Assembly: GCA_902775075.1 (NCBI GenBank)
Contig: CACYKX010000033.1
Coordinates: 1 to 18,450, forward strand
Source: an uncultured Prevotellaceae bacterium
GTDB lineage: Bacteria > Bacteroidota > Bacteroidia > Bacteroidales > Bacteroidaceae
Length of the DNA: 18,450 nucleotides
Direction: 5' to 3'
Numbering within the stretch: position 1 is the first letter of the stretch; the number at the start of each line of letters is the position of its first letter. The notes below the pieces were generated by a model, which saw nothing but the letters and a program-made list of their open reading frames with translations, had not been told where the DNA came from and made no database searches. Both the position numbers and the translations under genes were made by a program. This document shows, piece after piece, positions 1,790-4,509 of the stretch.

Positions 1790-1810
1790 ACAGTTGTAGG
1801 AGAGTTTATC
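1785..1810. terminator. Possible weak bidirectional hairpin between convergent genes
   Basis: GATAAAC (1785-1791) and GTTTATC (1804-1810) form a 7-bp stem with a 12-base loop. The stem overlaps the peptidase stop codon and reaches the phosphatase stop codon. It is AT-rich and has only a short T run on the plus side, so termination activity is uncertain. Confidence 0.35.
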
Positions 1811-3098
1811 ATTTAAGATAACCATCCAATTTCTTCAGATAATATTCTTTGAAGTCGTTCCAATGATAATATGGGGCTATATCGGTCTTAATAGGCAAAG
1901 TAGCCTCATTTTCATTTCTCAATACCTTAAAGATGATGTCTTTGTCTCCGTAGTTTTTGCGATAGAAAACAAACTGGATGTTACATGCCATCGGGAAGAT
2001 ACGATAATCGAGCCATCCTTCTTTATCCAAGTCATCAAGGTTTTTGATCTGTTTACCCAGCCCGTCCAAATCAAGCAGACAGGTAAGAGGCATAACCATC
2101 GTGTCGTGCCCGTAGCGTAATGTTGCGCCAGGATGCTCAAGGGCAATACAACTATCAGCCTCGGTAATGATCTTGCGAAGAAGGTTACGCTGGCTATAAG
2201 GTTGCTGTCCACCGCTCAAAGGAGATGGGCCGAAAGCCACATACCAGAAAGCATTATCACATTTCCAACTATTGTATATCTCTTCATCACTAAAGATATC
2301 ATACAAAGAGATGCTATTACGCAAGTCTAGACTCTGCATATTGCTGGCCATACTGAATAACTTACGACCCAACCAATTTGCATCAATCTGCTTCTTCCAG
2401 TAATCTTCATCGTTAAAGATCAACTTCATAGCATGACTATAATTGGTATGGCTCTTGATGAAATCGGTGTATTCTTTGCAATGGGTGCCCTTTTTCTTCC
2501 AACCACCAATATTGTCATCATCACTAAGATTCATATAATACATATCATGATAACTTGCGTCATGACGTATCTTGAGTTTAGGGTTCTCTATCAATAACTG
2601 TTGTAGAGCATTCTCCATCGAGAGAATACAACGAATGACAACAGTACTTTTCGCATCTATATGGGCTGAATCGCTGAATATCTCAGGGAAATTCTCATAC
2701 ATACGTTTTGCAATCTGCTTATGCTGTTCTGCGCCACGAAGTGTCAACTCTCCATCTCTACCCATGGCAGACTGGCGAATACGGCGCACCTTCTCCAAGA
2801 GTTCCTTGCCCTTTGGGGTAAGTTTGTTGAGAGAGTCAGCCTTGAGCAACATAAAATAAGGTTTGTCATAATCACCCTTCCCTATCTGATATCTACTGCC
2901 ATGACGACCATAATGACTCAAATAAAAAGCATGGTATCCTGTAGGAGCAGGAGTTAGTTGCTTCTGTAATGGTCCGGGATATGCAAGATAATTACTAGCC
3001 GATAAACGACGATCCAACTTAAAATCTTTCTTTGCCTGTTGTCCCATCATAGAAACAGACAACATCATCAAAGAAAGCATAATAATAGTTCTTTTCAT
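1809..3098 (-). CDS. Secreted histidine-type acid phosphatase (branch 2)
   Basis: This is a 429-residue protein with an N-terminal signal peptide (residues 1-20, MMGQQ at its end). The branch-2 histidine phosphatase motifs are visible: RHGSR at 65-69, with H66 as the phosphohistidine nucleophile; a second conserved Arg near R156 in the STVVIRCILS segment; and the proton-donor HD pair at H331-D332 in RYGHD. Enzymes of this branch include phytases, MINPP-like inositol-phosphate phosphatases and general acid phosphatases. The substrate cannot be told from the sequence. The export signal suggests that it releases phosphate from external or periplasmic organic phosphates. The start at 3098 gives the signal peptide directly. 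A TATATTTG box lies 22 bases upstream, and two FNR-like palindromes lie further upstream. Confidence 0.88.
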   Translation of the reverse strand: MKRTIIMLSLMMLSVSMMGQQAKKDFKLDRRLSASNYLAYPGPLQKQLTPAPTGYHAFYLSHYGRHGSRYQIGKGDYDKPYFMLLKADSLNKLTPKGKELLEKVRRIRQSAMGRDGELTLRGAEQHKQIAKRMYENFPEIFSDSAHIDAKSTVVIRCILSMENALQQLLIENPKLKIRHDASYHDMYYMNLSDDDNIGGWKKKGTHCKEYTDFIKSHTNYSHAMKLIFNDEDYWKKQIDANWLGRKLFSMASNMQSLDLRNSISLYDIFSDEEIYNSWKCDNAFWYVAFGPSPLSGGQQPYSQRNLLRKIITEADSCIALEHPGATLRYGHDTMVMPLTCLLDLDGLGKQIKNLDDLDKEGWLDYRIFPMACNIQFVFYRKNYGDKDIIFKVLRNENEATLPIKTDIAPYYHWNDFKEYYLKKLDGYLK

Positions 3099-3162: not shown

Positions 3163-3176
3163 TTGATTTATATCAA
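3163..3176. promoter_or_regulatory. FNR-box-like palindrome, copy 1
   Basis: The sequence TTGATTTATATCAA matches the FNR consensus TTGAT-N4-ATCAA in all ten defined positions. CRP/FNR-family regulators occur in Bacteroidota, but which one would bind here is unknown. It sits between two divergent promoters (box 3121-3128 on minus, 3266-3296 on plus). Confidence 0.5.
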
Positions 3177-3194
3177 AAACTGCTTAATAACATG

Positions 3195-3210
3195 TTGTGT
3201 CCGCACACAA
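3195..3210. promoter_or_regulatory. Perfect 6-bp-arm palindrome between the FNR-like sites
   Basis: TTGTGT (3195-3200) and ACACAA (3205-3210) are perfect inverted arms around CCGC. The form TTGTG-N6-CACAA resembles binding sites of CRP-superfamily regulators. It lies between the two TTGA-type palindromes. Operator function is an inference. Confidence 0.4.
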
Positions 3211-3214
3211 TTAT

Positions 3215-3228
3215 TTGACATATATCAA
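3215..3228. promoter_or_regulatory. FNR-box-like palindrome, copy 2
   Basis: TTGACATATATCAA differs from copy 1 at two of fourteen positions and fits TTGAT-N4-ATCAA with one mismatch. The two copies start 52 bases apart, close to five helical turns, so they face the same side of the DNA. It is centred about 80 bases upstream of the predicted plus-strand start near 3302. Confidence 0.45.
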
Positions 3229-3265
3229 GAAAGCGTATCATTTATTGACTTTTTCTTGAAAAACA

Positions 3266-3296
3266 TTGTGCATTACTAAAAATCGACCTACCTTTG
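3266..3296 (+). promoter_or_regulatory. Promoter of the cytosine-free transcript
   Basis: TTG at 3266-3268 (within TTGTG) is followed by 20 bases and then TACCTTTG at 3289-3296, an exact TAnnTTTG. The transcript would start near 3301-3303 and run through the C-free tract to the terminator at 3661-3689. Confidence 0.65.
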
Positions 3297-3350
3297 CAAT
3301 GTCAAAAGGAAAAAGCGGAAGTTGTTCCGCACATGGTTATTAGGTTTTTA

Positions 3351-3509
3351 GGTTTAAGATTGTTTAGTTGATAGGATTAGAAAAGGTAAGAAAGATTGTT
3401 AGTTTAAAAATAGGATTAGATTAGATAGGTAAATTGAGATTGTTATTAAGGGACAACAGGTATTAGGATAGGGATAAGGTAAATTAAAGATTGTTTTACA
3501 AGGGACGAC
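3351..3509 (+). repeat. Four degenerate tandem repeats around AGATTGTT
   Basis: Units start at about 3351, 3385, 3428 and 3478, each with GGT..AGATTGTT. The octamer AGATTGTT lies at 3358, 3393, 3437 and 3488. The first two units end in ATAGGATTAG (3371-3380 and 3410-3419). The last two end in AAGGGACAAC and AAGGGACGAC and are near-identical over about 30 bases. Spacing grows from 34 to 43 to 50 bases, so this is a decayed or functional array rather than a simple microsatellite. Confidence 0.6.
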
Positions 3510-3543
3510 AATTCAGTAGGTAGATAGAAAGAAAGGTAGAAAG

Positions 3544-3624
3544 ATGAACATGATGTTAGTAATTACCTGGGCTGCAATATTTGCAACCACAGGTTACGTG
3601 ATGAGGGATAGAACAAACCTTTAA
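3544..3624 (+). CDS. Candidate 26-residue membrane-type small protein
   Basis: The ORF runs from ATG at 3544 to TAA at 3622-3624. It begins MNMMLVITWAAIFATTGYVM and ends RDRTNL, so a hydrophobic segment of about 18-20 residues is followed by a short charged tail. That is the layout of a single-pass small membrane protein with the C-terminus on the positive, cytoplasmic side. A purine-rich AAAGG lies nine bases before the ATG. It is followed five bases later by an 8-codon ORF encoding MKNLRRKK (3630-3656) and then by a terminator. I recognise no homolog, and an ORF of this length can occur by chance. Support comes from its place inside a promoter-terminator unit with no other coding candidate. 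Confidence 0.4.
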   Translation: MNMMLVITWAAIFATTGYVMRDRTNL

Positions 3625-3660
3625 AGGTTATGAAAAATTTGAGAAGAAAGAAATAGATGG

Positions 3661-3689
3661 ACGCGTAGCAATAATGCCACGCGTTTTTT
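3661..3689 (+). terminator. Rho-independent terminator
   Basis: ACGCGTAGC and GCCACGCGT (3661-3684) pair as a 9-bp stem with one A-C mismatch and an AATAAT loop, followed by a run of six T (3684-3689). It closes the candidate transcript beginning near 3302 and separates it from the promoter at 3807-3837. Confidence 0.8.
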
Positions 3690-3741
3690 GTTGTCTATAC
3701 TTTTCTTCTTATGCTAAGAAAAGCACGAAAACGGTCTGCAC

Positions 3742-3864: not shown

Positions 3865-4509
3865 ATGGCAAAACATCCTTTGTGGTCTGATGAATACTGG
3901 TTACTGCTCATGCAACTGTATATGAAAAAACCAGTCGGAGTAAAGCCTCTTTACTCTCGTTCCATTGTCGACTTGAGTCTGGAGCTTCACATACCACCCC
4001 AGTTTCTGTATGAGCAAATGTTTAAACTCAGAATGGTCACACCTAAAATGGAAAGGCTTTGGGATACCTTCGGAAAGAACCCGAGAAAACTGGCCAAAGA
4101 GGTAGACCTTCTCAGAAACATGAAAGGATATGGTAATGCTGAAAAATTCTATGAAGGGGTAAACATCAAGGAATCCTTTGAGAAAGATTGGAAACCTATC
4201 AACGGATATCCAAATCTTACGAATATTAAACTTATCCTCATTCTGGATTTATACTTTCAACTTACACCCATCACAATGGTTCCTGAAACTCCGGAAATTA
4301 TTGATTTGGGAAAACTTATTCACGTGGAGCCTGTTCTTATCTCTGAGGTGTTGCAGGTGTATCAATTCTGTGACCCTTATCTTAACAGGGATGATCTGAT
4401 GATATCACCATTACTTGCTCCCTGTCAGAGTATATGGAATAAATTCGGAAACGATAATCCGAAGATTTTATACGACTTGGCAACACAACTCAAAGAATAC
4501 TACAAATAG
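3865..4509 (+). CDS. Uncharacterised protein with two-fold internal repeat
   Basis: This 214-residue protein is read from the ATG at 3865. The in-frame ATG at 3808 lies inside the promoter and is rejected. I do not recognise the family. It has no signal peptide or membrane segment, so it is cytoplasmic. It looks duplicated: residues 7-86 and 117-213 align, each with an L-x-L-Y/F helix, an IVDL/IIDL followed by helices that could form a helix-turn-helix, and a closing W-x-x-F-G-x-(x)-N-P-(x)-K-L/I block (W66-G70 and W191-G195). The linker 87-116 is charged. A link to transcription is suggested by the helix pattern and by the position 41 bases before rpoN in the same likely operon, but this is inference only. 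Confidence 0.8.
   Translation: MAKHPLWSDEYWLLLMQLYMKKPVGVKPLYSRSIVDLSLELHIPPQFLYEQMFKLRMVTPKMERLWDTFGKNPRKLAKEVDLLRNMKGYGNAEKFYEGVNIKESFEKDWKPINGYPNLTNIKLILILDLYFQLTPITMVPETPEIIDLGKLIHVEPVLISEVLQVYQFCDPYLNRDDLMISPLLAPCQSIWNKFGNDNPKILYDLATQLKEYYK

Follow-up and report, generated by a model that had tools for sequence, protein, structure and literature searches.

Why would a bacterial transcript dispense with one of the four bases over more than a hundred nucleotides? The question is raised by a stretch of Prevotellaceae DNA of 18,450 nt (hereafter the window, meaning the whole stretch that was analyzed), in which C makes up 20.1% of the bases and in which 121 consecutive positions of the plus strand, 3333-3453, count 44 A, 31 G, 46 T and no C. 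Only six C (at 3454, 3457, 3499, 3506, 3509 and 3514) occur within 3333-3540. The runner-up among runs without C or without G in the window spans 50 nt, and in 300 dinucleotide shuffles of the window the longest such run averages 44 nt and reaches at most 66 nt, which confirms the view of a preliminary description of this DNA that the tract lies beyond chance. The same description expected the RNA to be almost unstructured. This holds for the isolated tract, which folds at -8.4 kcal/mol compared with -21.7 ± 5.6 kcal/mol for random 121-mers from the window (n = 150, none as weak), but not for the tract within the whole transcript, where its mean unpaired probability of 0.46 is ordinary (0.44 ± 0.04 in 25 random slices), presumably because A-U and G-U pairs are possible elsewhere. 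The whole transcript is predicted to fold slightly more strongly than its shuffles (z = -1.65).

The tract was also said to begin about 30 nt past a predicted transcription start, and its surroundings bear this out: the start is predicted at ~3302, behind a Bacteroidota-type promoter, and a terminator-like hairpin closes what appears to be a self-contained unit (3196-3689), composed in this order of palindrome, FNR-like box, -7 element, leader, 26-codon ORF and terminator-like hairpin (Table 1). We call the box FNR-like on account of the half-site TTGAT. The box-promoter pattern has one match in the window and none in 200 shuffles. GATTG recurs at 3358, 3394 and 3438 in the C-free tract and at 3489 in its C-poor continuation.

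Table 1. Features of the unit by position in the window, with the kind of evidence behind each
Feature	Position	Strand	Evidence
Palindrome TGTGTCCGCACACA, putative operator	3196..3209		sequence
FNR/CRP-like box TTGACATATATCAAG, 59 nt ahead of the -7 element	3215..3229	+	pattern match
Bacteroidota -7 element TACCTTTG	3289..3296	+	sequence, conserved spacing
5' hairpin GCGGAAGTTGTTCCGC	3315..3330	+	predicted by MFE and centroid folding
C-free tract, core of the repeat leader, with TTAGGTTTTTAGGTTTAAGATTGTTTAG and AGGATTAG..AAGGTA..AGATTG modules	3333..3453	+	base count, sequence
C-poor continuation with one more module (TATTAGGATAGGGATAAGGTAAATTAAAGATTGTT), then pre-ORF stretch	3454..3543	+	sequence
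26-codon ORF MNMMLVITWAAIFATTGYVMRDRTNL, likely single-span membrane peptide	3544..3624	+	ORF, comparison with S. baroniae B14
Possible second mini-ORF MKNLRRKK, translation putative	3630..3656	+	sequence
Terminator-like hairpin ACGCGTAGCAATAATGCCACGCGT, then T-run	3661..3689	+	in MFE structure

The terminator consensus scan lists the stem at 3661-3689 on the minus strand only, and the TTTTT that directly follows on the plus strand was read from the sequence. Downstream of the unit lie another TAnnTTTG element, a gene for a 214-aa protein (3865-4509) and rpoN; the 214-aa protein, conserved in Prevotellaceae and encoded directly ahead of rpoN, has no Pfam family. Upstream, at 3163-3176 and thus 38 nt ahead of the box, a second FNR-like palindrome, TTGATTTATATCAA, sits between the unit and a divergent phosphatase gene (1809-3098, minus strand), which it may serve. 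The regulator Cur was considered for the unit and rejected: no Cur-type site (TATGTTnTAnAACATA) was found near the unit at up to three mismatches, and the three matches in the window with three mismatches compare with 2.79 ± 1.90 in shuffles. The published Cur consensus, wwwTATGTTnTAnAACATAwww, is unlike the box, as far as an excerpt of the source goes (PMC11501099); by eye, ATAACATG at 3187-3194 resembles a Cur half-site. A search of the window against Rfam gave no family at gathering score, and a comparison of 3290-3700 with plasmids gave no match.

The nearest named relative of the window is Segatella albensis DSM 11370, in which the neighboring 214-aa protein is 95% identical and the unit 98% identical over 421 nt, so that the absence of C from its copy says little about selection. 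The more distant S. baroniae B14 likewise has the unit in the syntenic position, with a C-poor leader, a related peptide and a terminator-like hairpin followed by a T-run; C makes up 4.5% of 110 nt of this leader, and no C-free run in it exceeds 41 nt. As to random divergence in relatives, a contingency raised by the preliminary description, the poverty in C and the AGATTG- and TTAGG-type modules are present in S. baroniae B14, strict freedom from C is not. The 5' hairpin is identical in S. albensis and has no counterpart in the leader of S. baroniae B14 as read, and two short stretches, GAAAGGTAGAAAGATG within the C-poor continuation and TTATGARAAATTTGAGAAGAAA in the mini-ORF region, are kept in all three syntenic copies, the former without any change. 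Among 24 loci of the 214-aa gene, 20 of which have at least 1 kb of upstream sequence, the unit is present only in these two species (L001 and L012): it stands as an island at this locus.

Comparison of the ORF with its S. baroniae B14 counterpart, MGITMMIAWIAAFTASGYVVKRFE, supports its conservation as a peptide gene, from which a peptide would be made. The differences fall 10/4/10 on the three codon positions, and the BLOSUM score of 50 compares with 23.2 ± 9.5 in a random-substitution null, in which 5 of 2574 stop-free trials scored as high and 2426 further trials contained a stop. The S. albensis ORF differs at two positions, both first codon positions and both amino-acid-changing, and therefore says little either way about selection on the peptide. 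The 26-aa peptide has no Pfam family, and a search of 301 genomes returned, besides S. albensis, weak matches in eight genomes only; four of the ten loci concerned were read (L051, L052, L059 and L060) and showed no box, leader or related peptide.

The leader is not confined to this island. Its words recur elsewhere in three genomes by BLAST, and about 10 of the 15 places read follow a common plan at unlinked loci: box, 59-60 nt, TAnnTTTGCA, and a C-poor leader built of TTAGGTTT, AAGGTA and AGATTG modules. The pattern box-N55-63-TAnnTTTGCA finds 8 loci in S. albensis, 14 in S. baroniae B14 and 3 in a third genome (G003), in total 25, with none in the reversed control, and within the genus it occurs at least once in 254 of 299 genomes, again with none in the reversed control. 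When all 51 box loci of seven genomes were classified, 20 had repeat leaders (at least two GATTG and at least three TTAGG/AAGGTA/TTAAGG in 220 nt, and less than 10% C in 110 nt), 7 were of the type of the sRNA FopS, 3 lay ahead of tRNAs, possibly by chance, and 21 were other, a count that includes L204, L209 and L213, which look related and fall outside this strict rule. The spacing from box to -7 element is 59 or 60 nt at all 20 repeat-leader loci, none of which matches a family of Rfam 15 at gathering score, and the upstream palindrome is found at 16 of these 20 but at only 5 of the remaining 31 box loci (Fisher's test, 7.9e-6).

A 33-nt C-free leader word, AAAGGTTAATAGATTGTTTAGGTTWGTAGTWAT, is found in 111 of 299 genomes when up to three mismatches are allowed, and never in the control, and its exact pattern has no match in viral contigs. 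Among the matches listed, read at one locus per genome in 30 genomes that are not a random draw, a -7 element is present in 30 of 30, a box (at least 11 of 13 positions) starts 89-91 nt ahead of the word in 30 of 30, and the palindrome is present in 21 of 30; the control stretch yields 0 of 30 for either. The 5' part is nearly invariant in an alignment of eleven family members. The leader of the window itself lacks the 33-nt word and has the shorter modules in common with the family. Among the papers listed in a literature search of CC-licensed PMC, none describes such a family. Taken as a whole, these relatives indicate that the tract is part of an RNA leader maintained by selection, as judged from comparative sequence.

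Several further features of the box-driven loci deserve mention. At L201 (genome G008), six copies of GTATTAGATTAAGG follow each other at 45-47 nt; this leader has a C-free run of 125 nt, exceeding that of the window, which is followed by near-identical 47-nt repeats. Seven loci with the same box and short, repeat-less leaders (L074, L080, L081, L082, L212, L216 and L218) encode 29-aa hydrophobic peptides similar to MMTLMVVLAVVVAVAANAVNVNNKIAAGK, and small proteins with signal-peptide-like starts similar to MKKMILLAVALFSMTATFAADE form another recurrent class under the box (L063, L070, L106, L200 and L202). By eye, L062, L069 and L083-L085 end alike in a 3' domain with two hairpins (in L085, for instance, GAGGATTCGGCCGTGAGGCTGACCTC and then a GGCGGRG..CTTCGC-like stem and a T-run), in which some changes look compensatory; the domain is a candidate structured RNA, and Rfam gave no match to these loci at gathering score. 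Another common 3' part, also seen by eye (L061, L065, L077, L214 and L217), comprises a CGTGAGG-type hairpin, AGTTAAACATA and a terminator with GCTCGT, and its GTTAAAC could pair with GTTTAAC of the leader. The box pattern ahead of tRNA genes occurs at L068, L078 and L219; at L068 and L219 the box is weaker (TTGACCAAATTCAAG, TTGACAAAATTCAAG) and possibly due to chance.

What such a leader might do is suggested by its likeness to FopS (RF04319), an sRNA that is multicopy in related bacteria and has an unstructured 5' seed, the R1 core of which (GTATTAGATTTAAGGTTAACAAA..GATTG) resembles the leader modules. In B. thetaiotaomicron, according to excerpts of its description, FopS is ~65-70 nt long, has GTGTTTTTCATAGTATTAGATTTAAGGTTAACAAA as its R1' and, with the RRM protein RbpB as its binding partner, represses susC at the start codon (PMC11697453). 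All seven genomes contain FopS, with 25 matches to the model, 24 of them above its cut-off of 56 bits; the seven FopS-type box loci are all among these matches, six above the cut-off. The box lies at 89-90 nt in 11 of the 25 copies (L329, L331, L332, L333, L334, L336, L337, L338, L341, L342 and L347), and is missing from the other 14, so that there are at least two types of FopS promoter in Prevotella/Segatella. Neither the window leader nor any of the 20 repeat-leader loci reaches the FopS model at 56 bits or more, and the window leader, as read, has modules like the R1 core only, without the R1' 5' end GTGTTTTTCATAGTATTAGATTTAAGGTTAACAAA and without GTTTTTCAT. Its local score of 29 against the R1 core is equaled in 8 of 500 dinucleotide shuffles. 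The similarity is clearest in L083, L084, L094, L201 and L208 (0 of 500 each), weak or not significant in L065 and L076 (34 of 500), L204 (86 of 500) and L073 (98 of 500), and ranges from 26 to 431 of 500 in six non-repeat leaders.

To look for targets, RNAduplex energies of leaders against 1253 predicted gene starts were tried and set aside, as they gave many loose long duplexes and did not clearly set the leaders apart from their reversed or shuffled versions; ungapped helices were used instead. Genome-wide, there is no excess of complementarity to start regions, with 65 start regions at -16 kcal/mol versus 78 ± 12 in shuffles, and at -14 kcal/mol there are fewer than in shuffles, 170 versus 263 ± 23. 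Of 1251 S. albensis start regions, the first- and second-ranked both fall in a single nine-gene sugar cluster (C8:35073-46909), which includes, by Pfam, an aldose epimerase, a Na:solute symporter and an FGGY kinase and is probably of arabinose/galactose type. The target test used composition-matched start regions and 150 dinucleotide-shuffled leaders, and because the S. albensis kinase had first been seen via BLAST, SusC-like genes served as a neutral set and S. baroniae B14 as a replicate; only the orthologous cluster of the latter, with its own leaders, was pre-specified, and SusC-like genes were defined by homology. The test has to be read with its crude gene starts, non-independent paralogous leaders and moderate, computed effects in mind.

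Averaged over all four repeat leaders of S. albensis, complementarity to the sugar cluster amounts to -4.06 kcal/mol versus -0.71 ± 0.38 in shuffles, and to eight SusC-like genes to -2.15 versus -0.42 ± 0.40 kcal/mol (0 of 150 shuffles as good in both). The S. albensis copy of the 121-nt tract alone is matched by 0 of 150 shuffles for the cluster and 2 of 150 for the SusC-like genes, and leader L072 fails the SusC-like test (88 of 150). In S. baroniae B14, where the ten leaders below 9% C were taken from 14 box loci, the means are -1.56 versus -0.43 ± 0.22 for the orthologous cluster (0 of 150) and -0.54 versus 0.04 ± 0.28 for five SusC-like genes (4 of 150). The cluster signal resides in repeat leaders (L069 and L077, 0 of 150; L085, 3; L079, 4; L083, 6; L084, 10), and the repeat-less leaders L080, L081 and L082 are not significant in the cluster test (30-37 of 150). 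Nor is the S. baroniae B14 counterpart of the window leader, L073, when taken alone (cluster 20 of 150, SusC-like 19 of 150). The matched start regions themselves show no excess (78 of 150 and 123 of 150). In 40 nt of start region, G averages 2.2 and 1.8 in the sugar cluster and 5.9 and 5.4 for the remaining genes. The FGGY-kinase start holds the best single site; none of the five other genomes with this gene (L193-L197) shows the site at its orthologous start. A cross-genus antisense seed pattern, AACTAAAAACCTA followed by ATG, at first looked strongly enriched, with matches in 93 of 299 genomes and six in the control, and was then rejected as a target signal: since 10 of the 30 loci read are antisense to box-driven leaders and 12 are neither this nor have an ORF of at least 90 aa (8 have), it lends weak support only. 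With moderate strength, these comparisons argue for a preference in complementarity of the leaders for one sugar cluster, in two species, and for SusC-like starts, and not for starts generally, which gives computational backing to the part of the preliminary description that had the RNA pair with other RNAs.

The reading that we consider most likely, at a probability of roughly 0.48, makes the C-free tract the seed-bearing part of a multi-seed base-pairing RNA, which at this locus is dual-function, with a membrane peptide as its second product. A protein platform ranks next and is in our view unlikely: repeated single-stranded modules would bind an RbpB-like RRM protein or another protein, the RNA titrating the protein or being protected by it, and pairing would be secondary. 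FopS, whose R1 seed the modules resemble, is after all bound by RbpB in B. thetaiotaomicron (PMC11697453, in part), and a word of 33 nt strongly conserved across species would suit a protein or another constant partner. However, RRM_1 (PF00076) was undetected in five of the seven family-holding genomes (S. albensis, G001; S. baroniae B14, G002; G003; G311; G312), among them both with the syntenic unit, while it is present in G153 and G008 and the search also works in a Bacteroides control. An RbpB-type platform is therefore not general, and the RNA-binding-protein platform put forward in the preliminary description is not supported where RRM proteins in general are concerned; composition-matched complementarity to sugar start regions would also not be expected from a platform. 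FopS itself could be the object of the array, if R1-like modules occupied its mRNAs or its protein and so relieved FopS repression. Similar modules and a box in common with 11 of 25 FopS copies speak for such a decoy, yet competition would require the same targets and, the modules being of the same sense as R1, pairing with the FopS seed is not expected; we regard it as improbable.

The phylum of the window makes little use of Shine-Dalgarno pairing, and the tract may do no more than keep the mRNA of the 26-aa peptide accessible to ribosomes, as a plain mRNA leader with no function in trans. This explanation, which we place after the platform and judge less likely again, draws on the conserved ORF, on the identity of GAAAGGTAGAAAGATG in the three copies and on the weak folding of the isolated tract. 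Against it, at least seven family members (L061, L065, L076, L077, L079, L094 and L217) end in a terminator-like hairpin without a similar ORF, and the same-box genes for 29-aa peptides mentioned above do without repeat leaders, so that peptide genes do not require a C-free leader, nor are such leaders found with them alone. Finally, it is very improbable that the tract has no RNA function and arose through compositional accident or biased mutation on the coding strand. In the 1.58 Mb of S. albensis that were covered (~58% of the genome, both strands), 31 of the 34 C-free runs of at least 55 nt have no box upstream, and these reach up to 83 nt; but the longest run of all is the orthologous tract (120 nt), the three runs with a box rank 1, 2 and 5, and neither the recurrence of the leader word in 111 of 299 genomes nor its fixed distance to the box in 30 of 30 among the matches listed, with controls at zero, would follow from an accident.

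For the multi-seed base-pairing RNA, the following course of events can be envisaged. A Crp/Fnr-family activator would act on the box at 3215-3229 and a second factor on the palindrome at 3196-3209, and activation would yield a transcript of ~390 nt, the leader of which would present, as an array, degenerate seed modules akin to the FopS R1 seed. The start regions of its putative targets, mRNAs for sugar transport and catabolism, are G-poor, with motifs like AACCTAAAAACCT just ahead of the ATG. Since the antisense of a G-poor region is C-poor, this would explain the composition of the leader: the array would be made only of letters able to pair with such targets, and its freedom from C would mirror their poverty in G, which fits the sugar-cluster start regions. 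Binding of the leader would then block translation initiation, as FopS does at susC, and translation of the downstream ORF would yield a small membrane peptide in addition, in the manner of dual-function sRNAs.

More tentatively, and with less than even confidence, the loci could be extended to a genus-wide class of multi-seed RNAs in Prevotella/Segatella. Its seed domain would be C-free since G-poor starts of sugar genes allow no C, so that base composition itself would be the adaptation; it would work without RRM chaperones; the class, some FopS copies and tiny membrane peptides would be switched jointly by one Crp/Fnr-type promoter code; and a peptide gene would be fused to it in some copies. 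The family offers a testable account of an RNA free of one base, and FopS-type seeds do occur in genomes in which no RRM chaperone was detected.

The plan of the unit recalls SgrS/SgrT, a dual-function sRNA that combines a base-pairing RNA and a small peptide in sugar control. The likeness is one of plan alone, and the order of parts is reversed, the seeds lying ahead of the ORF in the window. FopS has one seed, including the start-codon-pairing part GTTTTTCAT, which contains C, whereas the repeat leaders are, by reading, arrays of ~75-200 nt without that part, mostly have an extra palindrome (16 of 20) and, in the window copy, precede a peptide ORF. From excerpts of its description, GibS has a promoter motif 2 and two seeds, R1 and R2, and employs a long single-stranded 5' part as an extended seed at start codons (PMC7366714); its model (RF04182) has no match at the gathering score of 115 bits in the window or the 20 repeat-leader loci, and the best weak match among eight loci ranked by E-value, the FopS loci L064 and L199 apart, is L094 (32.7 bits, E = 0.47). 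Excerpts of the HcpR/SnoA preprint (PMC13370916) reveal no sequence link to the unit. MasB of B. thetaiotaomicron, likened here by regulation alone, is described in part as an sRNA under the Crp/Fnr-family regulator Cur (PMC10994844), and SrcF, the S. copri RNA colonization factor, compared by description alone, is, to go by an excerpt (PMC11814227), a Segatella sRNA that acts on PUL genes; it could belong to the box-driven leader family. Control of sugar use by RNA in gut Bacteroidota is known mainly from Bacteroides, with GibS, FopS and MasB as examples; if the proposed reading is true, the present family would be the Prevotella/Segatella counterpart, with a recognizable promoter code, strong conservation of a seed word, and a cluster of arabinose/galactose type as the source of candidate targets.
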